Shown here: piece after piece, positions 8,991 through 37,281 of the stretch
How positions within the stretch are numbered: the stretch's first letter is position 1
Layout of the letters: every line of letters begins with the position of its first letter
Source: Rugalucina vietnamica
Taxonomy: Eukaryota > Mollusca > Bivalvia > Lucinida > Lucinidae
Direction: 5' to 3'
DNA: 64,000 nucleotides
Assembly (NCBI GenBank): GCA_964017185.1
Contig: OZ024877.1
Location: 6,178,006 to 6,242,005, forward strand
The notes under the pieces: model-generated
The model's database searches: none
What the model was told of the DNA's origin: nothing
The model's input: only the letters and a program-made list of their open reading frames with translations
Program-made: the position numbers and the translations under genes

Positions 8991-9599
8991 GTAATTTTGC
9001 ACGAGGGTGAAGTTAGCAGTACCAGCAGTACTGCAGTAATACTGCGGCATTAGCCCAGCAGCACCAGCAGTATTACACATCCGGACGAAAGTAACGCCCG
9101 TATTGTTTTTTTAGATTACTGGTGTATTGATCTTTTTGAACGATTTAATAACATACTTATATGTTTATGTGTTTGTTTTTCTAGCATAACGGCTGATTCA
9201 GCAATTTTTCAGTCATGTCGGGACAGTGCCACCACTCTCTGATCTGGTATGTTCATGTGTATTCTTAAGCGCCACGAACCACCAGCTTCTCGTCTACACT
9301 GTTCCAAAAATGATACTATTGGTTTTACCACATTCACATGTACCATTCCCCATATTTAAAGAATTCACAATGCTTATGTCTCACCGGTTCTATTTGAATG
9401 CAATGAATGCATGTTACATGCACCGTAGTGCAAAGCCTGAGTAGCGTTGTCCTCTAAGTGTCCGGCGCTGTCTTCGAAGTGGCCGTCCTCGATTTTTAAA
9501 AAAGAGAAATTCAAATACAGATACATATTGAATGCAACTGGAGAACATTTCTTTCACAAACTTTTGATACAATTAAAGTCTAAATAAGGGACACAGCTA
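8991..9599 (-). repeat. Array-flanking segment F, inverted copy at the left edge of the large array
   Basis: The reverse complement aligns with 893-1886: TTTAATTGTATCAAA, TTGAATTTCTC then AAATCGAGGACGG, CATGTAAC, and finally the GCAGTATTACTGCAGTACTGC-type tract with GCTAACTTCAC (end at 9007). An open frame at 9226-9444 lies entirely in this repeat and is not a credible gene. The match to 893-1886 continues for about 16 bp past the GTGAAGTTAGC tract and then ends. Confidence 0.75.
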
Positions 9600-12500
9600 T
9601 AGGGTGCAATGAGGTCCAAACCGGTTTTTGACCCCCGATGTTACCACCCCAGAGGCTTGAGTTTCTGACCAGACCCTGTTGTGATTGTTGGTATGGTAAC
9701 ACTCTTTCAGCTGCGTGGGGTCGGTATACCGGGATAACTCTTGTTCTCGAGAAAAAGTGGTATACCTATATTATAAAAGCTAAAATAGCGAAAATACATG
9801 CTTTTAAGCAGCAGCATGTCACGCAAGTCATGGGCTTGAGTTTCTGGTCTCACCCTTTTTATAATGTCGAGTGATCCCCAGTGGATGGAACCAGATAGGT
9901 GGCTATACCGGGATAACTCTTGTTCTTGAGAATTGGGGGGTCAAAATAGGGGGGTGCAATGAGGTCCAAACCGGTTTTTGACCCCCGATGTTACCACCCC
10001 AGAGGCTTGAGTTTCTGACCAGACCCTGTTGTGATTGTTGGTATGGTAACACTCTTTCAGCTGCGTGGGGTCGGTATACCGGGATAACTCTTGTTCTCGA
10101 GAAAAAGTGGTATACCTATATTATACAAGCTAAAATAGCGAAAATACATGCTTTTAAGCAGCAACATGTCACGCAAGTCATGGGCTTGAGTTTCTGGTCT
10201 CACCCTTTTTATAATGTCGAGTGATCCCCAGTGGATAGAACCAGATAGGTAGCTATACCGGGATAACTCTTGTTCTCGAGAATTGGGGGTCAAAATAGGG
10301 GGGGGGGGGTGCAATGAAGTCCAAACCGGTTTTTGACCCCCGATGTTACCACCCTAGAGGCTTGAGTTTCTGATCGGACCCTGTTGTGATTGTTGGTATG
10401 GTAACACTCATGCAGCTGCATGGGGTCGGTATACCGGTATAACTCTTGTTCTCGAGAAAAAGTGGTATACCTATGTTATACAAGCTAAAAAAGCGAAAAA
10501 ACATGCTTTTCAGCAGCAACATGTCACGCAAGTCATGGGCTTGAGTTTCTGGTCTCTCTCTTTTTATAATATCGAGTGATCCCCAGGGAATGGAATCAGA
10601 TAGGTGGCTATACCGGGATAACTCTTGTTCTTGAGAATTGGGGGGTCAAAATAGGGGGGTGCAATGAGGTCCAAACCGGTTTTTGACCCCCGATGTTACC
10701 ACCCCAGAGGCTTGAGTTTCTGACCAGACCCTGTTGTGATTGTTGGTATGGTAACACTCTTTCAGCTGCGTGGGGTCGGTATACCGGGATAACTCTTGTT
10801 CTCGAGAAAAAAGTGGTATACCTATGTTATACAAGCTAAAAAATCGAAAATTCATGCTTTTCAGCAGCAACATGTCACGCAAGTCATGGGCTTGAGTTTC
10901 TGGTCTCACCCTTTTTATAATATCGAGTGATCCCCCAGGGAATGGAATCAGATAGGTGGCTTCACCGGGATAACTCTTGTTCTCGAGAAGTGTGTGTGTG
11001 TGTGTGTGTGTGGGGTGTCAAAATAGGGGGGGGGGTGCAATGAGGTCCAAACCGGTTTTTGACCCCCGATTTTACCACCCCAGAGGCTTGAGTTTCTGAC
11101 CAGACCCTGTTGTGATTGTTGGTATGGTAACACTATTTCAGCTGCGTGGGGTCGGTATACCGGGATAACTCTTGTTCTCGAGAAAAAGTGGTATACCTAT
11201 GTTATACAAGCTAAAAAAGCGAAAACGCATGCTTTTCAGCAGCAACATGTCACACAAGTCATGGGCTTGAGTTTCTGGTCTCACTCTTTTTTATAATATC
11301 CAGTGATCCCCAGTGGATGGGACCAGATAGGTGGCTATACCGGGATAACTCTTTTACTCGAGAATTGGGGTGTCAAAATGGGGGGGGGTGCAATGAGGTC
11401 CAAACCGGTTTTTGACCCCCGATATTACCACCCCAGAGGCTTGAGTTTCTGACCAGACCCTGTTGTGATTGTTGGTATGGTAACACTCTTTCAGCTGCGT
11501 GAGGTCGGTATACCGGGATAACTCTTGTTCTAGAGAAAATATGGTATACCTATGTTATACAAGCTAAAATAGCGAAAATATATGCTTTTCAGCAGCAACA
11601 TGTCACGCAAGTCATGTGCTTGAGTTTCTGGTCTCACCCTTTTTATAATATCGAGTGATCCCCAGTGGATGGAACCAGATAGGTGGCTATACCGGGATAA
11701 CTCTTGTTCTCGGGAATTGGGGGGTCATAATGGGGTGGGGGTGCAATGAGGTCCAAACCGGTTTTTGACCCCCGATGTTACCACCCTAGAGGCTTGAGTT
11801 TCTGATCAGACCCTGTTGTGATTGTTGGTATGGTAACACTCATGCAGCTGCGTGGGGTCGGTATACCGGGATAACTCTTGTTCTCGAGAGAAAAAGTGGT
11901 ATACCTATATTAGACAAGCTTTAAAAGCGAAAATACATGCATTTCAGCAGCAACATGTCACACAAGTCATGTGCTTGAGTTTCTGGTCTCACTCTTTTTA
12001 TAATATCGAGTGATCCCCAGGGAATGGAATCAGATAGGTGGCTTCACCGGGATAACTCTTGTTCTCGAGAATTGGGGGGTCAAAATAGGGGGGGGGGGTG
12101 CAATGAGGTCCAAACCGGTTTTTGACCCCCGATGTTACCACCCCAGAGGCTTGAGTTTTTGACCAGACCCTGTTGTGATTGTTGGTATGGTAACACTCTT
12201 TCAGCTGCGTGGGGTCGGTATACCGGGATAACTCTTGTTCTCGAGAAAAAGTGGTATACCTATGTTATACAAGCTAAAATAGCGAAAATACATGCATTTC
12301 AGCAGCAACATGTCACGCAAGTCATGTGCTTGAGTTTCTGGTCTCACTCTTTTTATAATATCGAGTGATCCCCAGGGAATGGAATCAGATAGGTGGCTTC
12401 ACCGGGATAACTCTTGTTCTCGAGAATTGGGGGGTCAAAATAGGGGGGGGGGGGTGCAATGAGGTCCAAACCGGTTTTTGACCCCCGATGTTACCACCCC

Positions 12501-15500
12501 AGAGGCTTGAGTTTCTGACCAGACCCTGTTGTGATTGTTGGAATGGTAACACTCATGCAGCTGCGTGGGGTCGGTATACCGGGATAACTCTTGTTCTCGA
12601 CAAAAAGTGGTATACCTATGTTATACAAGCTAAAAAAGCGAAAATACATGCTTTTCAGCAGCAACATGTCACGCAAGTCATGGGCTTGAGTTTCTGGTCT
12701 CACTCTTTTTATAATATCGAGTGATCCCCAGGGAATGGAATCAGATAGGTGGCTATACCGGGATAACTCTTGTTCTTGAGAATTGGGGGGTCAAAATAGG
12801 GGGGTGCAATGAGGTCCAAACCGGTTTTTGACCCCCGATGTTTCCACCCCAGAGGCTTGAGTTTCTGACCAGACCCTGTTGTGATTGTTGGTATGGTAAC
12901 ACTCTTTCAGCTGCGTGGGGTCGGTATACCGGGATAACTCTTGTTCTCGAGAAAAAGTGGTATACCTATATTATACAAGCTAAAATAGCGAAAATACATG
13001 CTTTTAAGCAGCAACATGTCACGCAAGTCATGGGCTTGAGTTTCTGGTCTCACCCTTTTTATAATGTCGAGTGATCCCCAGTGGATGGAACCAGATAGGT
13101 AGCTATACCGGGATACTCTTGTTCTCGAGAATTGGGGGTCAAAATAGGGGGGGGGGTGCAATGAAGTCCAAACCGGTTTTTGACCCCCGATGTTACCACC
13201 CTAGAGGCTTGAGTTTCTGATCGGACCCTGTTGTGATTGTTGGTATGGTAACACTCATGCAGCTGCGTGGGGTCGGTGTACCGGTATAACTCTTGTTCTC
13301 GAGAAAAAGTGGTATACCTATGTTATACAAGCTAAAAAGCGAAAATACATGCTTTTCAGCAGCAACATGTCACGCAAGTCATGGGCTTGAGTTTCTGGTT
13401 TCACTCTTTTTATAATATCGAGTGATCCCCAGGGAATGGAATCAGATAGGTGGCTATACCGGGATAACTCTTGTTCTTGAGAATTGGGGGGTCAAAATAG
13501 GGGGGTGCAATGAGGTCCAAACCGGTTTTTGACCCCCGATGTTACCACCCCAGAGGCTTAAGTTTCTAACCAGACCCTGTTGTGATTGTTGGTATGGTAA
13601 CACTCTTTCAGCTGCGTGGGGTCGGTATACCGGGATAACTCTTGTTCTCGAGAAAAAGTGGTATACCTATGTTATACAAGCTAAAAAAATCGAAAATTCA
13701 TGCTTTTCAGCAGCAACATGTCACGCAAGTCATGGGCTTGAGTCTCTGGTCTCACCCTTTTTATAATATCGAGTGATCCCCAGAGGATGGAACCAGATAG
13801 GTGGCTATACCGGGATAACTCTTGTTCTCGAGAATTGTGGGGTCCAAATAGGGGGGGGGGAGGGGGTGCAATGAGGTCCAAACCGGTTTTTGACCCCCGA
13901 TGTTACCACCCCAGAGGCTTGAGTTTCTGACCAGACCCTGTTGTGATTGTTGGTATGGTAACACTCTTTCAGCTGCGTGGGGTCGGTATACCGGGATAAC
14001 TCTTGTTCTCGAGAAAAAGTGGTATACCTATATTATACAAGCTAAAATAGCGAAAATACATGCTTTTAAGCAGCAACATGTCACGCAAGTCATGGGCTTG
14101 AGTTTCTGGTCTCACCCTTTTCATAATGTCGAGTGATCCCCAGTGGATGAAACCAGATAGGTAGCTATACCGGGATAACTCTTGTTCTCGAGAATTGGGG
14201 GTCAAAATATGGGGGGGGTTGCAATGAAGTCCAAACCGGATTTTGATCCCCGATGTTACCACCCTAGAGGCTTGAGTTTCTGATCGGACCCTATTGTGAT
14301 TTTTGGTATGGTAACACTCATGCAGCTGCGTGGGGTCGGTATACCGGTATAACTCTTGTTCTCGAGAAAAAGTGGTATACCTATGTTATACAAGCTAAAA
14401 AAGCGAAAATACATGCTTTTCAGCAGCAACATGTCACGCAAGTCATGGGCTTGAGTTTCTGGTCTCACTCTTTTTATAATATCGAGTGATCCCCAGGGAA
14501 TGGAATCAGATAGGTGGCTATACATGGATAACTCTTGTTCTTGAGAAATGGGGGTCAAAATAGGCGGGTGCAATGAGGTCCAAACCGGTTTTTGACCCCC
14601 GATGTTACCACCCCAGAGGCTTGAGTTTCTGACCAGACCCTGTTGTGATTGTTGGTATGGTAACACTCTTTCAGCTGCGTGGGGTCGGTATACCGGGATA
14701 ACTCTTGTTCTCGAGAAAAAGTGGTATACCTATGTTATACAAGCTAAAAAATCGAAAATTCATGCTTTTCAGCAGCAACATTTCACGCAAGTCATGGGCT
14801 TGAGTTTCTGGTCTCACCCTTTTTATAATATCGAGTGATCCCCAGTGGATGGAACCAGATAGGTGGCTATACCGGGATAACTCTTGTTCTCGAGAATTGG
14901 GGGGGTCCAAATAGGGGGGGGGGTGCAATGAGGTCCAAACCGGTTTTTGACCCCCGATGTTACCACCCCAGAGGCTTGAGTTTCTGTCCAGACCCTGTTG
15001 TGATTGTTGGTATGGTAACACTCTTTCAGCTGCGTGGGGTCGGTATACCGGGATAACTCTTGTTCTCGAGAAAAAGTGGTATACCTATATTATACAAGCT
15101 AAAATAGCGAAAATACATGCTTTTAAGCAGCAACATGTCACGCAAGTCATGGGCTTGAGTTTCTGGTCTCACACTTTTTATAATGTCGAGTGATCCCCAG
15201 TGGATGGAACCAGATAGGTAGCTATACCGGGATAACTCTTGTTCTCGAGAATTGGGGGTCAAAATAGGGGGGGGGGTGCAATGAAGTCCAAACCGGTTTT
15301 TGACCCCCGATGTTACCACCCTAGAGGCTTGAGTTTCTGATCGGACCCTATTGTTATTGTTGGTATGGTAACACTCATGCAGCTGCGTGGGGTCGGTATA
15401 CCGGGATAACTCTTGTTCTTGAGAATTGGGGGGTCAAAATAGGGGGGTGCAATGAGGTCCAAACCGGTTTTTGACCCCCGATGTTACCACCCCAGAGGCT

Positions 15501-18457
15501 TGAGTTTCTGACCAGACCCTTTTGTGATTGTTGGAATGGTAACACTCTTTCAGCTGCGTGGGGTCGGTATACCGGGATAACTCTTGTTCTCGAGAAAAAG
15601 TGGTATACCTATGTTATACAAGCTAAAAAATCGAAAATTCATGCTTTTCAGCAGCAACATGTCACGCAAGTCATGGGCTTGAGTTTCTGGTCTCACCCTT
15701 TTTATAATATCGAGTGATCCCCAGTGGATGGAACCAGATAGGTGGCTATACCGGGATAACTCTTGTTCTCGAGAATTGTGGGGTCCAAATAGGGGGGGGT
15801 GCAATGAGGTCCAAACCGGTTTTTGACCCCCGATGTTACCACCCCAGAGGCTTGAGTTTCTGACCAGACCCTGTTGTGATTGTTGGTATGGTAACACTCT
15901 TTCAGATGCGTGGGGTCGGTATACCGGGATAACTCTTGTTCTCGAGAAAAAGTGGTATACCTATATTATACAAGCTAAAATAGCGAAAATACATGCTTTT
16001 AAGCAGCAGCATGTCACGCAAGTCATGGGCTTGAGTTTCTGGTCTCACCCTTTTTATAATGTTGAGTGATCCCCAGTGGATGGAACCAGATAGGTAGCTA
16101 TACCGGGATAACTCTTGTTCTCGAGAATTGGGGGTCAAAATAGGGGGGGGGTGCAATGAAGTCCAAACCGGTTTTTGACCCCCGATGTTACCACCCTAGA
16201 GGCTTGAGTTTCTGATCGGACCCTGTTGTGATTGTTGGTATGGTAACACTCATGCAGCTGCGTGGGGTCGGTATACCGGGATAACTCTTGTTCTCGACAA
16301 AAAGTGGTATACCTATGTTATACAAGCTAATAAAGCGAAAATACATGCTTTTCAGCAGCAACATGTCACGCAAGTCATGGGCTTGAGTTTCTGGTCTCAC
16401 TCTTTTTATAATATCGAGTGATCCCCAGGGAATGGAATCAGATAGGTGGCTATACCGGGATAACTCTTGTTCTTGCGAATTGGGGGGTCAAAATAGGGGG
16501 GTGCAATGAGGTCCAAACCGGTTTTTGACCCCCGATGTTACCACCCCAGAGGCTTGAGTTTCTGACCAGACCCTGTTGTGATTGTTGGTATGGTAACACT
16601 CTTTCAGCTGCGTGGGGTCGGTATACCGGGATAACTCTTGTTCTCGAGAAAAAGTGGTATACCTATATTATACAAGCTAAAATAGCGAAAATACATGCTT
16701 TTAAGCAGCAACATGTCACGCAAGTCATGGGCTTGAGTTTCTGGTCTCACCCTTTTTATAATGTCGAGTGATCCCCAGTGGATGGAACCAGATAGGTAGC
16801 TATACCGGGATAACTCTTGTTCACGAGAATTGGGGGTCAAAATAGGGGGGGTGCAATGAAGTCCAAACCGGTTTTTGACCCCCGATGTTACCACCCTAGA
16901 GGCTTGAGTTTCTGATCGGACCCTGTTGTGATTGTTGGTATGGTAACACTCATGCAGCTGCGTGGGGTCGGTATACCGGTATAACTCTTGTTCTCGAGAA
17001 AAAGTGGTATACCTATGTTATACAAGCTAATAAAGCGAAAATACATGCTTTTCAGCAGCAACATGTCACGCAAGTCATGGGCTTGAGTTTCTGGTCTCAC
17101 TCTTTTTATAATATCGAGTGATCCCCAGGGAATGGAATCAGATAGGTGGCTATACCGGGATAACTCTTGTTCTTGCGAATTGGGGGGTCAAAATAGGGGG
17201 GTGCAATGAGGTCCAAACCGGTTTTTGACCCCCGATGTTACCACCCCAGAGGCTTGAGTTTCTGACCAGACCCTGTTGTGATTGTTGGTATGGTAACACT
17301 CTTTCAGCTGCGTGGGGTCGGTATACCGGGATAACTCTTGTTCTCGAGAAAAAGTGGTATACCTATATTATACAAGCTAAAATAGCGAAAATACATGCTT
17401 TTAAGCAGCAACATGTCACGCAAGTCATGGGCTTGAGTTTCTGGTCTCACCCTTTTTATAATGTCGAGTGATCCCCAGTGGATGGAACCAGATAGGTAGC
17501 TATACCGGGATAACTCTTGTTCACGAGAATTGGGGGTCAAAATAGGGGGGGTGCAATGAAGTCCAAACCGGTTTTTGACCCCCGATGTTACCACCCTAGA
17601 GGCTTGAGTTTCTGATCGGACCCTGTTGTGATTGTTGGTATGGTAACACTCATGCAGCTGCGTGGGGTCGGTATACCGGTATAACTCTTGTTCTCGAGAA
17701 AAAGTGGTATACCTAAGTTATACAAGCTAAAAAAGCGAAAATACATGCTTTTCAGCAGCAACATGTCACGCAAGTCATGGGCTTGAGTTTCTGGTCTTAC
17801 TCTTTTTATAATATCGAGTGATCCCCAGGGAATGGAATCAGATAGGTGGCTATACCGGGATAACTCTTGTTCTTGAGAATTGGGGGGTAAAAATAGGGGG
17901 GTGCAATGAGGTCCAAACCGGTTTTTGACCCCCGATGTTACCACCCCAGAGGCTTGAGTTTCTGACCAGACCCTGTTGTGATTGTTGGAATGGTAACACT
18001 CTTTCAGCTGCGTGGGGTCGGTATACCGGTATAACTCTTGTTCTCGAGAAAAAGTGGTATACCTATGTTATACAAGCTAAAAAATCGAAAATTCATGCTT
18101 TTCAGCAGCAACATGTCACGCAAGTCATGGGCTTGAGTTTCTGGTCTCACCCTTTTTATAATATCGAGTGATCCCCAGTGGATGGAACCAGATAGGTGGC
18201 TATACCGGGATAACTCTTGTTCTCGAGAATTGGGGGGTCCAAATAGGGGGGGGGGTGCAATGAGGTCCAAACCGGTTTTTGACCCCCGATGTTACCACCC
18301 CAGAGGCTTGAGTTTCTGACCAGACCCTGTTGTGATTGTTGGTATGGTAACACTCTTTCAGCTGCGTGGGGTCGGTATACCGGGATAACTCTTGTTCTCG
18401 AGAAAAAGTGGTATACCTATATTATAAAAGCTAAAATAGCGAAAATACATGCTTTTA
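9600..18457 (+). repeat. 350 bp satellite array, left arm part 1
   Basis: About 25 head-to-tail monomers of 345-360 bp. Each contains GGATAACTCTTGTTCTCGAG twice, a variable G-tract before GTGCAATGA, and GGTTTTTGACCCCCGATG. Monomers fall into at least three types, told apart by ATAATGTCGAG versus ATAATATCGAG, ACTCTTTCAG versus ACTCATGCAG, and AAAATACATG versus AAAATTCATG. They follow one another in a repeating order. The first about 2.5 kb is more diverged, as expected at an array edge, and holds a (TG)n at 10,990-11,012. Open frames of about 78 aa on + and 70-136 aa on - recur in most monomers but show no known domain. Confidence 0.95.
18455..18457. repeat. Target-site duplication TTA, left copy
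   Basis: Uninterrupted monomers read GCTTTTAAGCAGC here. The left flank reads GCTTTTA and then the element begins; after the element the sequence resumes TTAAGCAGC at 21,783. The duplicated bases are therefore TTA. A 3 bp TWA duplication is characteristic of PIF/Harbinger insertions. Confidence 0.85.
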
Positions 18458-19095
18458 TGCCTAGGTCACACTAGCGCTTACGGATGCCGCGGATAGTTGC
18501 GAATACTATACGTAGCGATCCGCAGAATTTTGTGGGCGGGGCTAACGGTTCTTAATGAATTTATTACCTTTAAATACGAATAAATACGGGTAGTTCAGGA
18601 AAGATACGGATACGTTCGAAGATAGTTACGGATAAATTCGAATACATACGGTTAAGATACTTGACTACATACCTTTCGATACCATCTGTTACTTTTAGAT
18701 ACAGACATACACCTTCAGATACGTAATGTTGCGTTTTCTTGCGTATATAACGGTGAAATTTGATGCAAGAAAACGCAGGTTTTAGTCAAACTACAGTCAC
18801 ACTCGCACATCCGGATGCTGCGGACGCCGCGGACTGACCTTTCGTATCTATCCGTCATATCCGTAACAATTCGCATCTTTTCCGTATATGTTCGTATCTT
18901 AACGTATTGTATATGCAAGTCCGATTCCATCCGCGCCCAAATTTTGAAAAAAGTCAAAAATTGGGCACGGATGAAACATCCGTAATAGTACGTAGTGACA
19001 TGTAAATGAAGGCGTTGATTCGAATCTTTCCGTATCTAAACCGTAACACAAACGTATCTGCACCGTAAATGAACGCATCAACCAACGATCATATG

Positions 19096-20525
19096 GGGTG
19101 CCGTTTTACTATTTATTCCCTATTTATGGATATCCATAATTCATTTTGGATATCCAAAATTCATTTCTGGATACTTAAAATCGATTTATGGATATCCTTA
19201 ATTCGTCTGAATATTGGATATCCATAAATTGATTTTAGGATATCCAAAAATCGAACTATGGATATCCTAAAATACAATCCTATTTTTGGATATTCATAAT
19301 TCGATTTAAGGATATTATAAAATCGGGCTAATATTGGATATCCATAATTCGATTTATTGATATCCATAAATGAGTTATGGATGTACTTCAATAGAACTGT
19401 ATTTTAGGATATCCATAATTTAAGGATATCCTTAAATCACAAAAATGATGTACGTGCCTATGGGTGCCATTTTACTATTTATTTCCTATTTTTTTGGATA
19501 TCCCTCATTCATTTAAGGATATCCATAATTTATTTATGGATATCCTTTATTCATTTATGGATATCCTTAAATAATTTAGGATATCCATTAACATTTCTGG
19601 ATATCCTAAAATGAATTATGGATATCCATAAATGAATTATGGATAACCATAATAATTATGGATATCCTGAAATGAATTATGGATATCCTGAAATAAATTA
19701 TGGATATCCTTATTTTTTTCGATATCCAAAATTTATTTTTGGACATCCATAATTCTTTTTTGGATATCCATAATTCATTTTGGATATCCTAAAATCAAGT
19801 TAAGGATATCCATAATTCGTCTGAATATTGGATATCCATAAATAGATTTAGCATATCCTAAAACCGAACTATGGATATCCTAAAATACAATCCTATTCTT
19901 GGATATCCATAATTCGATTAAAGGATATCCTAAAATCGGGCTAATATTGAATATCCATTATTCGATTTATGGATATCCATAAATGAGTTATGGATTTCCT
20001 TCAATAGGATTGTATTTAAGGATATCCATAATTCATTTAAGGATATCCTTAAATCACAAAAAAATGATGTACGTGCCTATGGAGTGCCGTTTTACTATTT
20101 ATTCTCTATTTTTGGATATCCGTAATTTATTTAAGGATATTCATAATGTATTTATGGATATCCTTAATTCATTTATGGATATCCTACAATAACTAAGGAT
20201 AAATCGAATTATGGATATCCAGTATTAGCCCGATTTTAGGATATCCTTAAATCGAATTATGGATATCCAAAAATAGGATTTTATTTAAGGATATCCATAA
20301 TTCGATCATAGGATATCCTAAAATCAATTTATGGATATCCAATATTCAGCCGAATTAAGGATATCCATAAATCGATTTAAGGATATCCAAAAAAGAATTA
20401 TGGGTATCCAAAAATATATTATGGATATCCAAACATGAATTTTGGACATCCAAAAATGAATTTTGGACATCCAAAAATGAATTATGGATATCCATAAATA
20501 GGAAATAAATAGTAAAACGGCACCC
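19096..20525. repeat. Inner inverted-repeat unit bounded by GGGGTGCCGTTTTAC
   Basis: GGGGTGCCGTTTTACTATTT starts at 19,096. Its reverse complement ends at 20,525. Related starts occur in forward orientation at about 19,470 and 20,080, each preceded by ATGATGTACGTGCCTATGG. This suggests an element nested in the larger one, with internal tandem duplication of about 0.4-0.6 kb. Confidence 0.6.
19125..20490. repeat. GGATATCC palindrome array 1
   Basis: The 8 bp palindrome GGATATCC, usually within TTATGGATATCCATAA, TTTAAGGATATCC or TTTTGGATATCC contexts, recurs mostly at 19-22 bp spacing for about 1.4 kb. Spacers are A/T-rich and often end in AATT or ATTCAT. Open frames across it read as MDI/DIHNSFMDI-type peptide repeats, a by-product of the DNA motif. 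Confidence 0.95.
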
Positions 20526-20659
20526 CATACGTGCCTATGGGATATAATGATTTCTCCCTAGTCAGAGAATGGAGGCATCCGATGTGGTTGAATTTACGTT
20601 GGCTTCCGTTTCGTTCAGTTTAAGTTAGAAAAAATCATTATGGAAAAGAAATATTTTTA

Positions 20660-21150
20660 AAATGAATTATGGATATCCTAAAATCGAATTATGGATATCC
20701 TTAAAGCAGATCATTATGGATATCCAAAAAAAGAATCATGGATATCCAAAAATCGAATTATGGATATCCTAAATTCAAGCTTATTTTTGGATATCCTAAA
20801 ACACATTTAAGGATATCCTTAAATGAGCTGATTTAAGGATATCCATAATTCGATTTTTGGATATCCAAAAATCGAATTATGGATATCCATAATTCATCGT
20901 GATTTTTGGATATCCAAAAATGTATTTCAGGATATCCATAATTCAATTATGGATATCCATAATTCATTTAAGGATATCCATAATTCATTTATGGATATCC
21001 ATAATTCATTTAAATGGATATCCATAATTCATTTTAGGATATCCAAAAATATTGATGGATATCTTTAATTATTATAGGATATCCATAAATGAATTAAGTA
21101 TATTCATAAATGAATTATGGATATCCATAAATGAATTATGGATATCCTTA
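20660..21150. repeat. GGATATCC palindrome array 2
   Basis: A second run of the motif, separated from the first by about 150 bp without it (20,527-20,660). Spacing and context are the same as array 1. Confidence 0.95.
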
Positions 21151-21782
21151 AATAAATAAATTACCTGTATAATAGAAAAATGACGGACATATTTGTCAAA
21201 GAGACTATATATTCCAGAAACGTTCTTGTATGATTCATTCAAGCATTGGATACAGATTATGTTATGCCCAAACACTCAGCTCTAGAGGGCTCAGCCACAC
21301 GCTTATTAGCATTGTTCAAGTTGCATCCTGGTTTGATTCCGTTTTCATACGTGTGGCATGCTGTGTAAACTTTAGGAAAACCGTAACATTACGTGTTCGT
21401 ATCTGAACGTATTAAATTGTATCGAAAAGTGTGTATAAACGACAAAGACCGCAACCGAACGAAACAACACGTATGTAACAGTATCGATCCGCAACAAATG
21501 CTTGATCGCGGAATGATACGTTTAGATGCGATTAGATACGGACAGATTCGAATAAATGCCTTCAGTTACGCACCATTGCCTACCATTACCGATCGTCCAT
21601 CCGCGCATGCATTTTTGACAGTTATGAAAATTTGCCCGCGGATCTACCGCGCCCTGAGGATACGATACGTACAGTTACGGACATTACGGATGAGATACGA
21701 ATCGTTACGGATAGGACGGACAGATACGGAACACCTATCCGCAGCGTCCGCAGCGTACGTAAGCCCTAGTGTGACCTAGGCA

Positions 21783-24700: not shown

Positions 24701-25697
24701 GGTAGCTATACCGGGATAACTCTTGTTCTCGAGAATTGGGGGTCAAAATAGGGGGGGGGTGCAATGAAGTCCAAACCGTATTTTGACCCCCGATGTTACC
24801 ACCCTAGAGGCTTGAGTTTCTGATCGGACCCTATTGTGATTGTTGGTATGGTAACACTCATGCAGCTGCGTGGGGTCGGTATACCGGTATAACTCTTGTT
24901 CTCGAGAAAAAGTGGTATACCTATGTTATACAAGCTAAAAAAGCGAAAATACATGCTTTTCAGCAGCAACATGTCACGCAAGTCATGGGCTTGAGTTTCT
25001 GGTCTCACTCTTTTTATAATATGGAGTGATCCCCAGGGAATGGAATCAGATAGGTTGCTATACCGGGATAACTCTTGTTCTTGAGAATTGGGGGGTCAAA
25101 ATAGGGGGGTGCAATGAGGTCCAAACCGGTTTTTGACCCAGAGGCTTGAGTTTCTGACCAGACCCTGTTGTGATTGTTGGTATGGTAACACCCTTTCAGC
25201 TGCGTGGGATCGGTATACCGGGATAACTCTTGTTCTCGAGAAAAAGTGGTATACCTATGTTATACAAGCTAAAAAATCGAAAATTCATGCTTTTCAGCAG
25301 CAACATGTCACGCAAGTCATGGGCTTGAGTTTCTGGTCTCACTCTTTTTATGATATCGAGTGATCCCCAGGGAATGGAATCAGAAAGGTGGCTATACCGG
25401 GATAACTCTTGTTCTCGAGAATTGGGGGTTCAAAATAGGGGGGGGGGGCAGTGAGGTCCAAACCGGTTTTTGACCCCCGATGTTACCACCCCAGAGGATT
25501 GAGTTTCTGACCAGACCCTGTTGTGATTGTTGGTATGGTAAAAGTCTTTCAGCTGCGTGGGGTCGGTATATCGGGATAACTCTTGTTCTCGTGAAAAAGT
25601 GGTATACCTATGTTATACAAGCTGAAAAAAATTGAAAATACATGTTTTTCAGCAGCAACATGTCACGCAAGTCATGGGCTGGAGTTTCTGGTCTCAC
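21783..25697 (+). repeat. 350 bp satellite array, left arm part 2
   Basis: Continuation of the left arm after the inserted element, about 11 monomers in the same orientation. Monomers cycle in types as in part 1. The last monomer (from about 25,440) is more diverged (CAGTGAGG, GTAAAAGTC, ATATCGGG) and is cut at GGTCTCAC (25,697), where the orientation reverses. Confidence 0.95.
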
Positions 25698-28600
25698 TTT
25701 TTCTCGAGAACAAGAGTTTATCCGGTATACCGACACCACGCAGCTGAAAGAGTGTGACCATACCAACCATCACAACAGGGTCTGGTCAGAAACTAAAGCT
25801 TCTTGGGTGGTATTATCGGGGGTCAAAAACCGGTTTGGACCTCATTGCACCCCCACCCCTGTTTCGACCCCCCAATTCCCGAGAACAAGAGTTATCCCTG
25901 TATAACTCCTTTCTGTTTCCATCCACTGGGGATCACTCGATGTTATAAAAAGGGTGAGACTAGAAACTCAAGCCCATGTCTTGCGTGACATGTTGCTGCT
26001 GAAAAGCATGTATTTTCGGTGTTTTAGCTTGTATAACATAGGTATACCACTTTTTCTCGAGAACAAGAGTTATCCCGGTATACCGACCCCACGCAGCTGA
26101 AAGAGTGTCACCATACCAACAATCAAAACAGGGTCTGGTCAGAAACTCAAGCCTCTGGGGTGGTAACATCGGGGGTCCAAAACCGATTTGGACCTCATTG
26201 CATCCCCCCTACTTTCGACCCCCCAATTCTCGAGTAAAAGAGTTATCCCGGTATAGCCACCTATCTGGTTCCATCCATTGTGAATCACTCGATATTATAA
26301 AAAGAGTGAGACCAGAAGCCAATGACTTGTGTGACATGTTGCTGCTGAAAAACATGTATTTTCGCTTTTTTAGCTTGTATAACATAGGTATACCACTTTT
26401 TCTCGAGAACAAGAGTTATCCCGGTATACCGACCCCACGCAGCTGCATGAGTGTTACCATACCAAAAACCAAAAATCACAACAGGGTCCGATCAGAAACT
26501 CAAGCCTCTAGGGTGGTAACATCGGGGGTCAAAACCGGTTTGGACCTCATTGCACCCCCCCCCCCATTATGACCCCCAAATTCTCGAGAACAAGAGTTAT
26601 CCCGGTATAGCCACCTATCTGGTTCCCCCATGATAACCCCCCCAATTCTCGAGAACAAGAGTTATCCCGGTATAGCCACCTATCTGGTTCCATCCAATGG
26701 GGATCACTCGATATTATAAAAAGGGTGAGACCAGAAACTCAAGCCCATGACTTGCGTGACATGTTGCTGATGAAAATCATGTATTTTCGCTTTTTTAGCT
26801 TGTATAACATAGGTATACCACTTTTTTTTCGAGAACAAGAGTTATCCCGGTATACCGACCCCACGCAGCTGTGTTACCATACCAACAATCACAACAGGGT
26901 CTGTTCAGAAACTCAAGCCTCTGGGGTGGTAACATCGGGGGTCAAAAACCGGTTTGGACCTCATTGCACCCCCCTATTTTGACCCCACCCAATTCTCGAG
27001 AACAAGAGTTATCCCGGTATAGCCACCTATCTGGTTCTATCCACTGGGGATCACTCGATATTATAAAAAGGGTGAGACCAGAAACTCAAGCCCATGACTT
27101 GCGTGACATGTTGCTGCTGCAAAGTATGTATTTTCGTTTTTTAGCTTGTATAATATAGGTATACCACTTATTCTCTCGAGAACAAGAGTTATCCCGGTAT
27201 ACCGACCCTGCGCAGCTGCATGAGTGTTACCATACCAACAATCACAACAGGGTCCGATCAGAAACTCAAGCCTCTAGGATGGTAACATCGGGGTCAAAAA
27301 CCGGTTTGAACCTCAATGCACCCCCCATTATGACCCCCCAATGCTCGAGAACAAGAGTTATCCAGGTATAGCCACCTATCTGGTTCTATCCACTGGGGAT
27401 CACTCGATATTATAAAAAGGGTGAGACCAGAAACTGAAGCCCATGACTTCCGTGACATGTTGCTCCTGAAAAACATGTTTTTTCGCTTTTTTAGCTTGTA
27501 TAACATAGGTATACCACTTTTTCTCGAGAACAAGAGTTATCCCGATATACCGACCCCACGCAGCTGAAAGAGTGTTACCATATCAACAATCACAACGGGA
27601 TCTGGTCAGAAACTCAAGCCTCTGGGATGGTAACATCGGGGGTCATAAACCGGTTTGGACCTCATTGCACCCCCTCCTCCTATTTTGACCCCCCACCCCC
27701 CAATTCTCGAGAAAAAGAGTTATCCCGTATAGCCAACTATTTGGTTCCATCCACTGGGGATCACTTGATATCATAAAAAGAGTGAGACCAGAAACTCAAG
27801 CCCATGACTTGCGTGACATGTTGCTGCTGAAAAGCATGGTTTTTCGCTTTTTTAGCTTGTATAACATGGGTATACCACTTTTTCTCGAGAACAAGAGTTA
27901 TCCCGGTATACCGACCCCACGCAGCTGAAAGAGTGTTACCATACCAACAATCACAACAGGGTCTGGTCAGAAACTCAAGCCTCTGGGGTGGTAACATCGG
28001 GGGTCAAAAACCGGTTTGGACCTCATTGCACCCCCCCCCCCTATTTGGACCCCCCAATTCTCGAGAACAAGAGTTATCCCGGTATAGCCACCTATCTGGT
28101 TCCATCCACTGGGGATCACTCGATATTATAAAAAGGGTGAGACCAGAAACTCAAGCCCATGACTTGCGTGACATGTTGCTGCTGAAAAGCATGAATTTTC
28201 GATTTTTTAGCTTGTATAACATAGGTATACCACTTTTTCTCGAGAACAAGAGTTATCCCGGTATACCGACCCCACGCAGCTGAAAGAGTGTTACCATTCC
28301 AACAATCACAACAGGGTCTGGTCAGAAACTCAAGCCTCTGGGGTGGTAACATCGGGGGTCAAAAACCGGTTTGGACCTCATTGCACCCCCCTATTTTGAC
28401 CCCCCAATTCTCAAGAACAAGAGTTATCCCGGTATAGCCACCTATCTGATTCCATTCCCTGGGGATCACTCGATATTATAAAAAGAGTGAGACCAGAAAC
28501 TCAAGCCCATGACTTGCGTGACATGTTGCTGCTGAAAAGCATGTATTTTCGCTTTTTTAGCTTGTATAACATAGGTATACCACTTTTTCTCGAGAACAAG

Positions 28601-31600
28601 AGTTATCCCGGTATACCGACCCCACGCAGCTGAAAGACTGTTACCATACCAACAATCACAACAGGGTCTGGTCAGAAACTCAAGCCTCTGGGGTGGTAAC
28701 ATCGGGGGTCAAAAACCGGTTTGGACCTCATTGCACCCCCCCCTATTTGGACCCCACAATTCTCGAGAACAAGAGTTATCCCGGTATAGTCACCTATCTG
28801 GTTCCATCCTCTGGGGATCACTCGATATTATAAAAAGGGTGAGACCAGAAACTCAAGCCCATGACTTGCGTGACATGTTGCTGCTGAAAAGCATGAATTT
28901 TCGATTTTTTAGCTTGTATAACATAGGTATACCACTTTTTCTCGAGAACAAGAGTTATCCCGGTATACCGACCCCACGCAGCTGAAAGAGTGTTACCATT
29001 CCAACAATCACAACAGGGTCTGGTCAGAAACTCAAGCCTCTGGGGTGGTAACATCGGGGGTCAAAAACCGGTTTGGACCTCATTGCACCCCCCTATTTTG
29101 ACCCCCCAATTCTCAAGAACAAGAGTTATCCCGGTATACCGACCCCACGCAGCTGCATGAGTGTTACCATACCAACAATCACAATAGGGTCCGATCAGAA
29201 ACTCAAGCCTCTAGGGTGGTAACATCGGGGGTCAAAAACCGGTTTGGACTTCATTGCACCCCCCCCCCCTATTTTGACCCCCAATTCTCGAGAACAAGAG
29301 TTATCCCGGTATAGCTACCTATCTGGTTCCATCCACTGGGGATCACTCGACATTATAAAAAGTGTGAGACCAGAAACTCAAGCCCATGACTTGCGTGACA
29401 TGTTGCTGCTTAAAAGCATGTAGTTTCGCTATTTTAGCTTGTATAATATAGGTATACCACTTTTTCTCGAGAACAAGAGTTATCCCGGTATACCGACCCC
29501 ACGCAGCTGAAAGAGTGTTACCATACCAACAATCACAACAGGGTCTGGACAGAAACTCAAGCCTCTGGGGTGGTAACATCGGGGGTCAAAAACCGGTTTG
29601 GACCTCATTGCACCCCCTATTTGGACCCCCCCCCCCAATTCTCGAGAACAAGAGTTATCCCGGTATAGCCACCTATCTGGTTCAATCCACTGGGGATCAC
29701 TCGATGTTATAAAAAGGGTGAGACCAGAAACTCAAGCCCATGACTTGCGTGAAATGTTGCTGCTGTAAAGCATGAATTTTCGATTTTTTAGCTTGTATAA
29801 TATAGGTATACCACTTTTTCTCGAGAACAAGAGTTATCCCGGTATACCGACCCCACGCAGCTGAAAGAGTGTTACCATACCAACAATCACAACAGGGTCT
29901 GGACAGAAACTCAAGCCTCTGGGGTGGTAACATCGGGGGTCAAAAACCGGTTTGGACCTCATTGCACCCCCCTATTTGGACCCCCCCAATTCTCGAGAAC
30001 AAGAGTTATCCCGGTATAGCCACCTATCTGGTTCAATCCACTGGGGATCACTCGATATTATAAAAAGGGTGAGACCAGAAACTCAAGCCCATGACTTGCG
30101 TGAAATGTTGCTGCTGTAAAGCATGAATTTTCGATTTTTTAGCTTGTATAACATAGGTATACCACTTTTTCTCGAGAACAAGAGTTATCCCGGTATACCG
30201 ACCCCACGCAGCTGAAAGAGTGTTACCATACCAACAATCACAACAGGGTCTGGTCAGAAACTCAAGCCTCTGGGGTGGTAACATCGGGGGTCAAAAACCG
30301 GTTTGGACCTCATTGCACCCCCCTATTTTGACCCAAATTTCTCAAGAACAAGAGTTATCCATGTATAGCCACCTATCTGATTCCATTCCCTGGGGATCAC
30401 TCGATATTATAAAAAGAGTGAGACCAGAAACTCAAGCCCATGACTTGCGTGACATGTTGCTGCTGAAAAGCATGTATTTTCGATTTTTTAGCTTGTATAA
30501 CATAGGTATACCACTTTTTCTCGAGAACAAGAGTTATACCGGTATACCGACCCCACGCAGCTGCATGAGTGTTACCATACCAACAATCACAATAGGGTCC
30601 GATCAGAAACTCAAGCCTCTAGGGTGGTAACATCGGGGATCAAAATCCGGTTTAGACTTCATTGCACCCCCCCCTATTTTGACCCCCAATTCTCGAGAAC
30701 AAGAGTTATCCCGGTATAGCTACCTATCTGGTTTCGTCCACTGGGGATCACTCGACATTATAAAAAGGGTGAGACCAGAAACTCAAGCCCATGACTTGCG
30801 TGACATGTTGCTGCTTAAAAGCATGTATTTTCGCTATTTTAGCTTGTATAATATAGGTATACCACTTTTTCTCGAGAACAAGAGTTATCCCGGTATACCG
30901 ACCCCACGCAGCTGAAAGAGTGTTACCATACCAACAATCACAACAGGGTCTGGTCAGAAACTCAAGCCTCTGGGGTGGTAACATCGGGGGTCAAAAACCG
31001 GTTTGGACCTCATTGCACCCCCCCCCCTATTTGGACCCAACAATTCTCGAGAACAAGAGTTATCCCGGTATAGCCACCTATCTGGTTCCATCCTCTGGGG
31101 ATCACTCGATATTATAAAAAGGGTGAGACCAGAAACTCAAGCCCATGACTTGCGTGACATGTTGCTGCTGAAAAGCATGAATTTTCGATTTTTTAGCTTG
31201 TATAACATAGGTATACCACTTTTTCTCGAGAACAAGAGTTATCCCGGTATACCGACCCCACGCAGCTGAAAGAGTGTTACCATTCCAACAATCACAACAG
31301 GGTCTGGTCAGAAACTCAAGCCTCTGGGGTGGTAACATCGGGGGTCAAAAACCGGTTTGGACCTCATTGCACCCCCCTATTTTGACCCCCCAATTCTCAA
31401 GAACAAGAGTTATCCCGGTATAGCCACCTATCTGATTCCATTCCCTGGGGATCACTCGATATTATAAAAAGAGTGAGACCAGAAACTCAAGCCCATGACT
31501 TGCGTGACATGTTGCTGCTGAAAAGCATGTATTTTCGCTTTTTAGCTTGTATAACATAGGTATACCACTTTTTCTCGAGAACAAGAGTTATACCGGTATA

Positions 31601-34600
31601 CCGACCCCACGCAGCTGCATGAGTGTTACCATACCAACAATCACAACAGGGTCCGATCAGAAACTCAAGCCTCTAGGGTGGTAACATCGGGGGTCAAAAA
31701 CCGGTTTGGACTTCATTGCACCCCCCCCCCCTATTTTGACCCCCAATTCTCGAGAACAAGAGTATCCCGGTATAGCTACCTATCTGGTTCCATCCACTGG
31801 GGATCACTCGTAAATTATAAAAAGGGTGAGACCAGAAACTCAAGCCCATGACTTGCGTGACATGTTGCTGCTTAAAAGCATGTATTTTCGCTATTTTAGC
31901 TTGTATAATATAGGTATACCACTTTTTCTCGAGAACAAGAGTTATCCCGGTATACCGACCCCACGCAGCTGAAAGAGTGTTACCATACCAACAATCACAA
32001 CAGGGTCTGGTCAGAAACTCAAGCCTCTGGGGTGGAAACATCGGGGGTCAAAAACCGGTTTGGACCTCATTGCACCCCCCTATTTTGACCCCCCAATTCT
32101 CAAGAACAAGAGTTATCCCGGTATAGCCACCTATCTGATTCCATTCCCTGGGGATCACTCGATATTATAAAAAGAGTGAGACCAGAAACTCAAGCCCATG
32201 ACTTGCGTGACATGTTGCTGCTGAAAAGCATGTATTTTCGCTTTTTTAGCTTGTATAACATAGGTATACCACTTTTTGTCGAGAACAAGAGTTATCCCGG
32301 TATACCGACCCCACGCAGCTGCATGAGTGTTACCATACCAACAATCACAACAGGGTCCGATCAGAAACTCAAGCCTCTAGGGTGGTAACATCGGGGGTCA
32401 AAAACCGGTTTGGACTTCATTGCACCCCCCCCCTATTTTGACCCCCAATTCTCGAGAACAAGAGTTATCCCGGTATAGCTACCTATCTGGTTCCATCCAC
32501 TGGGGATCACTCGACATTATAAAAAGGGTGAGACCAGAAACTCAAGCCCATGACTTGCGTGACATGCTGCTGCTTAAAAGCATGTATTTTCGCTATTTTA
32601 GCTTTTATAATATAGGTATACCACTTTTTCTCGAGAACAAGAGTTATCCCGGTATACCGACCCCACGCAGCTGAAAGAGTGTTACCATACCAACAATCAC
32701 AACAGTGTCTGGTCAGAAACTTTAGCCTCTGGGGTGGTAACATCGGGGGTCAAAAACCGGTTTGGACCTCATTGCATCCCCCCCCCTATTTGGACCCCCC
32801 AATTCTCGAGAACAAGAGTTATCCCGGTATAGCCACCTATCTGGTTCCATCCACTGGGGATCACTCGATATTATAAAAAGGGTGAGACCAGAAACTCAAG
32901 CCCATGACTTGCGTGACATGTTGCTGCTGAAAAGCATGAATTTTCGATTTTTTAGCTTGTATAACATAGGTATACCACTTTTTCTCGAGAACAAGAGTTA
33001 TCCCGGTATACCGACCCCACGCAGCTGAAAGAGTGTTACCATTCCAACAATCACAACAGGGTCTGGTCAGAAACTCAAGCCTCTGGGGTGGTAACATCGG
33101 GGGTCAAAAACCGGTTTGGACCTCATTGCACCCCCCTATTTTGACCCCCCAATTCTCAAGAACAAGAGTTATCCCGGTATAGCCACCTATCTGATTCCAT
33201 TCCCTGGGGATCACTCGATATTATAAAAAGAGTGAGACCAGAAACTCAAGCCCATGACTTGCGTGACATGTTGCTGCTGAAAAGCATGTATTTTCGCTTT
33301 TTTAGCTTGTATAACATAGGTATACCACTTTTTCTCGAGAACAAGAGTTATCCCGGTATACCGACCCCACGCAGCTGAAAGAGTGTTACCATACCAACAA
33401 TCACAACAGGGTCTGGTCAGAAACTCAAGCCTCTGGGGTGGTAACATCGGGGGTCAAAAACCGGTTTGGACCTCATTGCACCCCCCCCCCCCCCTATTTG
33501 GACCCCACAATTCTCGAGAACAAGAGTTATCCCGGTATAGCCACCTATCTGGTTCCATCCTCTGGGGATCACTCGATATTATAAAAAGGGTGAGACCAGA
33601 AACTCAAGCCCATGACTTGCGTGACATGTTGCTGCTGAAAAGCATGGATTTTCGATTTTTTAGCTTGTATAACATAGGTATACCACTTTTTCTCGAGAAC
33701 AAGAGTTATCCCGGTATACCGACCCCACGCAGCTGAAAGAGTGTTACCATTCCAACAATCACAACAGGGTCTGGTCAGAAACTCAAGCCTCTGGGGTGGT
33801 AACATCGGGGGTCAAAAACCGGTTTGGACCTCATTGCACCCCCCTATTTTGACCCCCCAATTCTCAAGAACAAGAGTTATCCCGGTATAGCCACCTATCT
33901 GATTCCATTCCCTGGGGATCACTCGATATTATAAAAAGAGTGAGACCAGAAACTCAAGCCCATGACTTGCGTGACATGTTGCTGCTGAAAAGCATGTATT
34001 TTCGCTTTTTAGCTTGTATAACATAGGAATACCACTTTTTCTCGAGAACAAGAGTTATACCGGTATACCGACCCCACGCAGCTGCATGAGTGTTACCATA
34101 CCAACAATCACAACAGGGTCCGATCAGAAACTCAAGCCTCTAGGGTGGTAACATCGGGGGTCAAAAACCGGTTTGGACTTCATTGCACCCCCCTCCTATT
34201 TTGACCCCCAATTCTCGAGAACAAGAGTATCCCGGTATAGCTACCTATCTGGTTCCATCCACTGGGGATCACTCGACATTATAAAAAGGGTGAGACCAGA
34301 AACTCAAGCCCATGACTTGCGTGACATGTTGCTGCTTAAAAGCATGTATTTTCGCTATTTTAGCTTGTATAATATAGGTATACCACTTTTTCTCGAGAAC
34401 AAGAGTTATCCCGGTATACCGACCCCACGCAGCTGAAAGAGTGTTACCATACCAACAATTACAACAGGGTCTGGTCAGAAACTCAAGCCTCTGGGGTGGA
34501 AACATCGGGGGTCAAAAACCGGTTTGGACCTCATTGCACCCCCCTATTTTGACCCCCCAATTCTCAAGAACAAGAGTTATCCCGGTATAGCCACCTATCT

Positions 34601-37045
34601 GATTCCATTCCCTGGGGATCACTCGATATTATAAAAAGAGTGAGACCAGAAACTCAAGCCAATGACTTGCGTGACATGTTGCTGCTGAAAAGCATGTATT
34701 TTCGCTTTTTTAGCTTGTATAACATAGGTATACCACTTTTTGTCGAGAACAAGAGTTATCCCGGTATACCGACCCCACGCAGCTGCATGAGTGTTACCAT
34801 ACCAACAATCACAACAGGGTCCGATCAGAAACTCAAGCCTCTAGGGTGGTAACATCGGGGGTCAAAAACCGGTTTGGACTTCATTGTACCCCCCCCCCCC
34901 TATTTTGCTATTTTGACCCCCAATTCTCGAGAACAAGAGTTATCCCGGTATAGCTACCTATCTGGTTCCATCCACTGGGGATCACTCGACATTATAAAAA
35001 GGGTGAGACCAGAAAGTCAAGCCCATGACTTGCGTGACATGCTGCTGCTTAAAAGCATGTATTTTCGCTATTTTAGCTTTTATAATATAGGTATACCACT
35101 TTTTCTCGAGAACAAGAGTTATCCCGGTATACCGACCCCACGCAGCTGAAAGAGTGTTACCATACCAACAATCACAACAGGGTCTGGTCAGAAACTCAAG
35201 CCTCTGGGGTGGTAACATCGGGGGTCAAAAACCGGTTTGTACCTCATTGCACCCCCCCCCCCTATTTGGACCCCCCAATTCTCGAGAACAAGAGTTATCC
35301 CGGTATAGCCACCTATCTGGTTCCATCCACTGGGGATCACTCGATATTATAAAAAGGGTGAGACCAGAAACTCAAGCCCATGACTTGCGTGACATGTTGC
35401 TGCTGAAAAGCATGAATTTTCGATTTTTTAGCTTGTATAACATAGGTATACCACTTTTTCTCGAGAACAAGAGTTATCCCGGTATACCGACCCCACGCAG
35501 CTGAAAGAGTGTTACCATTCCAACAATCACAACAGGGTCTGGTCAGAAACTCAAGCCTCTGGGGTGGTAACATCGGGGGTCAAAAACCGGTTTGGACCTC
35601 ATTGCACCCCCCCCCCCTATTTTGACCCCCAATTCTCGAGAACAAGAGTTATCCCGGTGAAGCCACCTATCTGATTCCATTCCCTGGGGATCACTCGATA
35701 TTATAAAAAGAGTGAGACCAGAAACTCAAGCACATGACTTGCGTGACATGTTGCTGCTGAAATGCATGTATTTTCGCTATTTTAGCTTGTATAACAAAGG
35801 TATACCACTTTTTCTCGAGAACAAGAGTTATCCCGGTATACCGACCCCACGCAGCTGCATGAGTGTTACCATACCAACAATCACAGCAGGGTCTGATCAG
35901 AAACTCAAGCCTCTAGGGTGGTAACATCGGGGGTCAAAAACCGGTTTGGACCTCATTGCACCCCCACCCCATTATGACCCCCCAATTCCCGAGAACAAGA
36001 GTTATCCCGGTATAGCCACCTATCTGGTTCCATCCACTGGGGATCACTCGATATTATAAAAAGGGTGAGACCAGAAACTCAAGCACATGACTTGCGTGAC
36101 ATGTTGCTGCTGAAAAGCATATATTTTCGCTATTTTAGCTTGTATAACATAGGTATACCATATTTTCTCTAGAACAAGAGTTATCCCGGTATACCGACCT
36201 CACGCAGCTGAAAGAGTGTTACCATACCAACAATCACAACAGGGTCTGGTCAGAAACTCAAGCCTCTGGGGTGGTAAAATCGGGGGTCAAAAACCGGTTT
36301 GGACCTCATTGCACCCCCCCCCCCCCCCATTTTGACACCCCAATTCTCGAGTAAAAGAGTTATCCCGGTATAGCCACCTATCTGGTCCCATCCAGTGGGG
36401 ATCACTGGATATTATAAAAAAGAGTGAGACCAGAAACTCAAGCCCATGACTTGTGTGACATGTTGCTGCTGAAAAGCATGCGTTTTCGCTTTTTTAGCTT
36501 GTATAACATAGGTATACCACTTTTTCTCGAGAACAAGAGTTATCCCGGTATACCGACCCCACGCAGCTGAAATAGTGTTACCATACCAACAATCACAACA
36601 GGGTCTGGTCAGAAACTCAAGCCTCTGGGGTGGTAACATCGGGGGTCAAAAACCGGTTTGGACCTCATTGCACCCCCCCCCCCCTATTTTGACACCCCCC
36701 CCCCCCCCCACACACACACACACTTCTCGAGAACAAGAGTTATCCCGGTGAAGCCACCTATCTGATTCCATTCCCTGGGGGATCACTCGATATTATAAAA
36801 AGGGTGAGACCAGAAACTCAAGCCCATGACTTGCGTGACATGTTGCTGCTGAAAAGCATGTATTTTCGCTTTTTCTAGCGTGTATAACAGAGGTATACCA
36901 CTTTTTCTCGAGAAGAAGAGTTATATATACCAACTCCACGCAGCTGAAAGATTGTTGCCATACCAACAGAGTCTCGTCAGAAACTCAAGCTTCTGGGGTT
37001 GGTAACACCGGGGGTCAAAAAACGGTTTGGACCTCATTGCACCCT
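25698..37045 (-). repeat. 350 bp satellite array, right arm (inverted)
   Basis: About 32 monomers in the opposite orientation to the left arm (CTCGAGAACAAGAGTTATCCC on the + strand). The innermost 2 kb (25.7-27.8 kb) is diverged with small deletions. 27.9-35.6 kb is homogeneous. The outer 1.4 kb (35.6-37.0 kb) carries the same private variants, in mirror order, as the outer part of the left arm. A (CA)n tract at 36,710-36,723 mirrors the (TG)n at 10,990-11,012. Confidence 0.95.
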
Positions 37046-37281
37046 GTTGTTCTGTTTCTCATTTAGAACTTAATTGTATCAAAGATATAAACATATAAGT
37101 ATATTATTAAATGGCTCAAAAAGTTCAATTTCTGCAGTACTGCTGGTACTGCTAACTTCACAATCAGTAATCATGAAAAGAACAATACGGGCGTAACTTT
37201 CGTCCGGATGTGTAATACTGCTGATGCTGCTGGGCTAATGCCGCAGTATTACTGCAGTACTGCTGGTACTGCTAACTTCAC
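37046..37281 (+). repeat. Array-flanking segment F, shortened copy at the right edge
   Basis: TTAATTGTATCAAA passes directly into ACATATAAGTATATTATTAAATGG, skipping the middle of F. AATACGGGCGTAAC, TCCGGATGTGTAATACTGC and the GCAGTATTACTGCAGTACTGC-type tract follow, ending GCTAACTTCAC at 37,281. Part of the last tract also appears earlier (37,132-37,162), a small duplication. Similarity to the other copies stops at about 37,281. Confidence 0.75.

Follow-up and report, generated by a model that had tools for sequence, protein, structure and literature searches.

A 28-kb inverted satellite unit of Rugalucina vietnamica is very probably a copy of a giant Foldback-type transposon family with satellite-bearing arms

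The window, a 64,000-nucleotide stretch of DNA analysed as a whole (C9:6178006-6242005 of the 47-contig, 1.09-Gb genome), contains a unit of 28,287 bp (9001–37,287, F domains and outer tip hexamers included) in which two opposed satellite arrays are enclosed by inverted non-satellite ends. Very probably, the unit belongs to a family of giant DNA transposons of the Foldback type, which are non-autonomous and have terminal inverted repeats (TIRs) armed with satellite. The copies read through have long TIRs containing tandem repeats, and the family is dispersed in the genome with target-site duplications, though not at the window copy itself; both are features of the Foldback-type structural class.

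Overall structure of the unit

Self-comparison and monomer parsing recovered mirror arrays and inverted ends, bearing out a sequence-only reading of this DNA, which had described the satellite as one giant inverted duplication rather than a simple tandem array. Monomers run on the + strand in the left arm, from 9602 to ~25,697, and on the − strand in the right arm, from 25,698 to 37,044. They are mostly 349–361 bp long (extremes, 337–414 bp, partial ones excluded), and each consists of two related half units. At the flip point (25,695–25,702), 4 to 8 bases are compatible with both orientations; monomer phase leaves an unpaired loop of ~101 nt, and a 601-nt piece across the flip gave a DNA fold z-score of −23.5 versus 20 shuffles. 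The left arm is divided into outer (9602–18,457) and inner (21,783–25,697) parts by the 3.3-kb insertion already recognised in the earlier reading, which is a separate TIR element (18,458–21,782) foreign to the unit, with termini TGCCTAGGTCACACTAG and TTA on each side; a copy of 96.5% identity lies in another element of the family (E7, see below). The body of this nested element is rich in ~21-bp repeats around GGATATCC and has no frame of ≥150 aa.

The F domain, which is the non-satellite part of the TIR, occupies 9007–9601 on the + strand at the c end, where it begins with GTGAAGTTAGCAGTAC (three-way alignment; genome copies mostly 91–98%), and 37,045–37,281 on the − strand at the t end (alignment). 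Both unit ends, and a third end at window 1–1870, align inward from the first base of F, which begins GTGAAGTTAGCAGTACCAGCAGTACTGCAGTAATACTGC. Immediately outside F are the outer tip hexamers ACGAGG (9001–9006, + strand) at the c end and ATTCAT (37,282–37,287; ATGAAT on the − strand) at the t end, assigned from the tip pattern of the pairs with flanks read. A non-satellite flank common to both outer edges and inverted between them had thus been correctly perceived, and the extent of 8991–37,281 given to the whole was roughly right, its start being ~ten bases and its end ~six bases off. The outermost 117 bp of the two F domains are 95.7% identical. The right F is internally shortened and its terminus is doubled by a second, inner copy (37,128–37,166), and a doubled terminus with 120-bp spacing is found also at C7:58.3 (C7:58320407 and C7:58320527).

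As for coding cargo, the unit has a sole frame of ≥150 aa, which measures 155 aa, lies within the array, and gave no Pfam match; Rfam gave no match within the window. The other content of the window comprises an Abhydrolase_3 frame, a purple acid phosphatase tail, a THAP frame, a DDE_Tnp_4/HTH_Tnp_4 transposase, and a reverse transcriptase piece. The DDE_Tnp_4/HTH_Tnp_4 frame (45,396–46,205) and the THAP frame (50,042–50,503) are both on the − strand, 3.8 kb apart, and may belong to one Harbinger/ISL2EU-like transposon.

Mirror relation of the two arms

Rare monomers pair across the flip of the window copy in mirror order (L4–R1, 99.4%; L5–R2, 99.7%; L15–R21, 99.7% identity), and a unique 171-bp half-monomer, present once per arm (15,277–15,447 on the + strand and 29,088–29,258 on the − strand), is 99.4% identical between the two. 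Among 487 monomers from nine elements, 22 of the 37 left-arm monomers have their nearest relative only in the mirror arm; the overall monomer identity is 95.1% within the left arm, 94.1% within the right arm, and 94.6% between the arms. The mirror is inexact, with gains and losses of blocks moving the register between −3 and +6 monomers. A stricter monomer-anchor test yielded three anchors in the window copy, all in order (permutation p, 0.175), and zero above threshold in the eight other copies read; the mirror claim therefore rests on the landmark monomers, by which the two arms of the window copy mirror each other in order as well as in orientation. A mirror-order test by unique 40-mers was discarded as confounded, because the arms taken included F.

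Occurrence of paired tips in the genome

With F (9001–9240) as the query, matches were found in inverted pairs across the chromosomes (best 40 of 276 candidates scored). Exact matches to the 17-base core tip pattern number 83 across the genome, versus none for its reversed control. As many as 64 of the 83 tips form 32 inverted pairs spaced by less than 70 kb, all of them converging, with 19 tips unpaired; random placement produced a mean of 0.12 pairs and a maximum of 2. The pairs measure 8,721 to 59,841 bp and sum to 1.01 Mb, and the sole other tip adjacency below 70 kb is the gap of about 7.1–7.2 kb between the two elements of the window. When up to two mismatches were allowed in a 22-base tip pattern, 58 + 59 places were found, versus 2 + 0 for the reversed control, and 31 pairs were present among the 100 of these 117 places that were listed. 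One ACG-type and one ATG-type tip were found in every pair with readable tip letters (24/24, of the 31 listed). At the level of hexamers, 16 of the 17 pairs with flanks read combine an ACGAGG or ACGACG tip with an ATGAAT tip on the opposite side, and thus show the unlike outer motifs that are characteristic of Tm1-like elements. The exception is C1:33.0, a pair outside the 32 exact-tip pairs, in which the c tip is degenerate.

Two tip subfamilies can be distinguished: subfamily A, with ACGAGG or ACGACG and ATGAAT (about 20 pairs), and subfamily W, with ACGGCG or ACGGAG and ATGGAT in the pairs with letters shown (12 pairs), the assignment of 7 of the 31 pairs being based on F similarity or on flanks read instead of tip letters. 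The F domains of A and W are about 84–87% identical. Both subfamilies are represented in the window, A by the copy described above and W by a terminal piece that the sequence-only reading had overlooked. This piece is the right (c) end of an adjacent element (1–1876, − strand; tip ACGGCG; alignment and tip census) with tips at C9:6150127 and 6179881, 29.8 kb in total, whose sequence was read within the window. Its monomers are ~87% like those of the A element of the window. In a search for W monomers (2 of 395 candidates scored), W-type monomers at C13:48412639-48414036 were found to reverse orientation at ~48412681, near a W tip without partner (C13:48415797), which hints at a flip in W copies as well.

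Target-site duplications

An exact 9-bp target-site duplication is present in 11 of the 17 pairs with both flanks read, whereas mismatched pairs used as a control gave 0/272. None of the 11 extends to 10 bp, the duplicated 9-mers differ in sequence among loci, and their length agrees with the 9 bp (8–11) of Mutator elements. Duplications were absent from the window copy (3/9) and from C5:44.0 (4/9), C7:62.7 (6/9), and C1:33.0 (4/9), while C7:35.1 (5/9) and C5:55.7 (6/9) resemble, by eye, 9-mers with an insertion of 2 bp and 5 bp, respectively, on one side. It is plausible that the duplication of the window copy was lost through later rearrangement. A target-site preference was considered and set aside, the 11 sites showing weak trends only (C at position 9 in 6/11). 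Between the two origins proposed by the sequence-only reading, the 32 inverted pairs and the 11 duplications speak for a TIR-type element of very large size whose body is satellite, and the other copies exclude a foldback or palindromic duplication, as a one-off local event, from being the general explanation.

Copies read through and their flip points

Besides the window copy, eight elements were read whole: E1 (C9:45.3), E2 (C5:44.0), E3 (C4:1.98), E4 (C7:62.7), E5 (C7:39.9), E6 (C4:67.9), E7 (C9:52.8), and E8 (C9:17.1). The order F, array (+), array (−), F was found in all nine (9/9), which belong to subfamily A and account for 9 of the 32 pairs; other units of the F–array–array–F type, for which the sequence-only reading had suggested a genome search, therefore do exist. 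In further A pairs, a monomer starts ~0.6–1.3 kb from the tip at both ends (six pairs) or at one end (three pairs). Of the other 14 pairs, 12 belong to W, for which the sequence covered is the end that lies in the window. The read arms are 3.5 to 21 kb long, with lengths varying widely both within and between copies. Nested inserts are carried by the window copy (3.3 kb), E7 (~3.6 kb), E3 (~0.24 kb), and E5 (inside both F ends). In E3, a short inverted-repeat insertion with ends ACTGAGAGGAACTAGAAACTT is located in the right arm, and the same end sequence adjoins the 3.3-kb insert of E7.

The two F ends of the same copy are 98.0–99.8% identical in 13/14 young copies. Those of E6 are 90.4% identical, one end having a different inner F, and those of E2, an older copy, 97.0%; the value for the window copy is 57.9% because its right F has been shortened. 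The c-end F of the window copy groups with C7:58.3 and C8:57.7, beside E2, and its monomers are 93–94% like those of other elements, versus ~96% among the seven young copies, which places the window copy on an older branch of the family. In the seven young copies read, monomers from different copies resemble each other as closely as those from a single copy.

The nine read copies have eight distinct flip junctions. The one in common is that of E3 (C4) and E7 (C9), which has the same shortened monomer alongside and is spanned by one 7.2-kb alignment, with different target-site duplications in the two copies. This common flip shows that E3 and E7 descend from one palindrome with an already formed centre, and that a second chromosome acquired a copy of this palindrome or of its ancestor. 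The 15 left-arm monomers beside the common flip show no greater likeness in register than out of it, so that the evidence for joint movement of long arms is limited to the flip and the 7.2-kb alignment. At 6 of the 8 junctions, 3–8 bases fit both orientations, with none in E8 and 10 unmatched bases in E2 (exact-word painting). All eight distinct centres are imperfect palindromes, in which monomer phase leaves loops of ~47 to 176 nt; these lengths are suggestive of an avoidance of perfect palindromes, but would arise in about 8% of cases by chance, and we make no such claim.

Search for a transposase

Mutator-type transposase domains are present in the genome, with at least 104 places for PF20700 and at least 59 for PF10551, and none of these is inside a tip pair; the listed tip nearest to a PF10551 place is 255 kb away. 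One PF20700 frame of 296 aa (C2:83435424-83436131) is located inward of an unpaired tip, C2:83423740, at a distance of 11.7 kb, a placement with a chance expectation of 0.007 (inner side, 12 unpaired tips) or 0.11 (any of 100 tips), and the 17-base census gave no second exact tip near it. We regard this frame as a candidate helper or autonomous relative, and as a lead only. In three regions (C12:28967974-28994502, C2:67350015-67382641, and C4:68178757-68230326), PF20700 matches recur at a mostly regular spacing of ~4.2, 4.6, and 5.0 kb, so that transposase units may be tandemly arrayed there. A Merlin affiliation was rejected: PF12762 (IS1595-type) has at least 56 places, and among the best candidates none is close to the tips, the nearest of the 83 being 201 kb off. 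A duplication of 9 bp together with asymmetric tips, as in Tm1, points to the Mutator side rather than to P/Galileo (7 bp) or Helentrons, and makes the family a putative Mutator member.

Proposed mechanism and alternative explanations

In the copies read, the whole element is a pair of TIRs with a 350-bp satellite array as their inner part, and a coding middle is absent; the W copies would share this plan. Recognition of the tips (GTGAAGTTAGCAGTAC and the asymmetric outer hexamers) is most likely due to a transposase encoded elsewhere, and the same enzyme would excise the element and insert it with a 9-bp target-site duplication in a cut-and-paste manner. The arms would then probably lengthen, shorten, and homogenise via unequal exchange and conversion. 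The centre may be repeatedly broken and rejoined, mostly through 3–8 bp of common sequence, to give a new flip and unequal arms; its re-formation could proceed through joining at short homologies or through template switching. As a tentative but serious possibility, palindromes of tens of kb may move intact, the satellite being the transposon body, with arms of perhaps 30 kb predicted for the largest pair (59.8 kb); each move or gap repair could re-form the centre, and transposition would spread, shuffle, and homogenise the satellite genome-wide.

Possible too, though less likely than not, is that small foldback elements with F and a few monomers per end were inserted, and that the arrays grew in place later. 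Such growth is compatible with the great variation in arm length and with the lack of strict mirror anchors in the eight other read copies, and the repeat number in TIRs is variable in Tetris (PMC4079207) and Galileo (PMC3573991). Against growth in place, the smallest of the 32 pairs is already 8.7 kb, E3 and E7 have a common flip with an alignment across it, and the monomers of young copies are equally alike between and within copies.

There is a slim chance that a palindromic segmental duplication, occurring only once and at the window locus, produced the mirror-image copy of the array with its flank. The mirror order of several landmark monomers and the missing target-site duplication of the window copy speak for this event, which is nevertheless refuted as a general explanation by the 32 inverted tip pairs and by the exact duplications of differing sequence in 11/17 pairs; it survives solely for the first origin of the ancestral palindrome. 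Assembly of long inverted arrays is difficult, and the flip at ~25,697 could in principle be an assembly join, but this is very unlikely: all nine read copies, with different flanks and mostly different flip points, contain a flip, 6 of the 8 distinct junctions share 3–8 bases, F stands on both sides, and target-site duplications enclose 11/17 pairs.

A Helitron/Helentron-type element with a central satellite, as in bivalves, has a negligible probability, given the inverted ends of ~0.6 kb, the inverted arms, and the 9-bp target-site duplications found here. To our knowledge, none of these three is a Helitron feature. What speaks for such an element is that oyster Helentrons carry dispersed satellite-like arrays (PMC7492417). 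An ordinary tandem satellite or chance is ruled out by the mirror-ordered monomers, the opposed arms, and the fixed paired ends.

Taken as a Foldback-type transposon family, these units bear on the long-standing question of how satellites reach many chromosomes, since a satellite carrier is visible here with defined tips, target-site duplications, 32 placeable copies, and two tip subfamilies. They also show that inverted repeats of 8.7–60 kb with almost no spacer persist in an animal genome, and are of value for studies of palindrome instability because eight distinct flip junctions are in hand.

Comparison with known elements

In their tips, these elements resemble Tm1, a Mutator/Foldback family of root-knot nematodes with 9-bp target-site duplications in most copies, unlike short motifs at the outer ends just inside the duplication, and TIRs composed of a variable number of tandem repeats, the two TIRs of one element being unequal (PMC3169594). 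In contrast, the tandem unit of Tm1 is 13–15 bp, versus ~350 bp here, and its elements are ~1 kb, shorter and MITE-like, or transposase-encoding (PMC3169594), whereas those described here are 8.7–60 kb, have no middle, and gave no transposase linked to a paired copy among the places scored. Rehavkus and Phantom MULEs likewise have 9-bp duplications (8–10 bp or not indicated for Phantom) and, in some cases, minisatellites, but they encode transposases and have TIRs of 26–400 bp (Rehavkus) or of 18–613 bp or none (Phantom) (PMC6446971). The Cg_HINE Helentrons of oyster are comparable as mobile elements that spread satellite-like arrays, and differ in having central repeats between unlike flanks and in belonging to another superfamily (PMC7492417).

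In architecture, they resemble Tetris, a foldback element of Drosophila virilis, in which the TIR consists of a flanking domain and ~220-bp tandem repeats, complete copies have 8–9 bp target-site duplications, no coding capacity was seen, and the element is a source of satellite (PMC4079207). Its TIRs of up to 1,735 bp enclose a middle domain, which is absent here, and its longer arrays are not described, in the text available, as arms of complete copies, whereas long arrays are such arms here (PMC4079207). In Galileo, of the P superfamily, the TIRs are likewise long, with tandem repeats inside them whose variation at one end is independent of that at the other, but these TIRs are at most about 1.26 kb and the duplications are 7 bp (PMC3573991). 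No satellite-armed foldback element of this size was found in a search of full-text literature, which had most subscription papers outside it. The arms read here (3.5–21 kb) are ~2 to 12 times as long as the longest TIRs of Tetris (1.7 kb) and Galileo (1.26 kb) in these sources. A foldback plan in which the TIRs contain satellite is thus already known from Tetris; what differs here is the scale, the absence of a middle domain, and complete copies that are almost entirely satellite.
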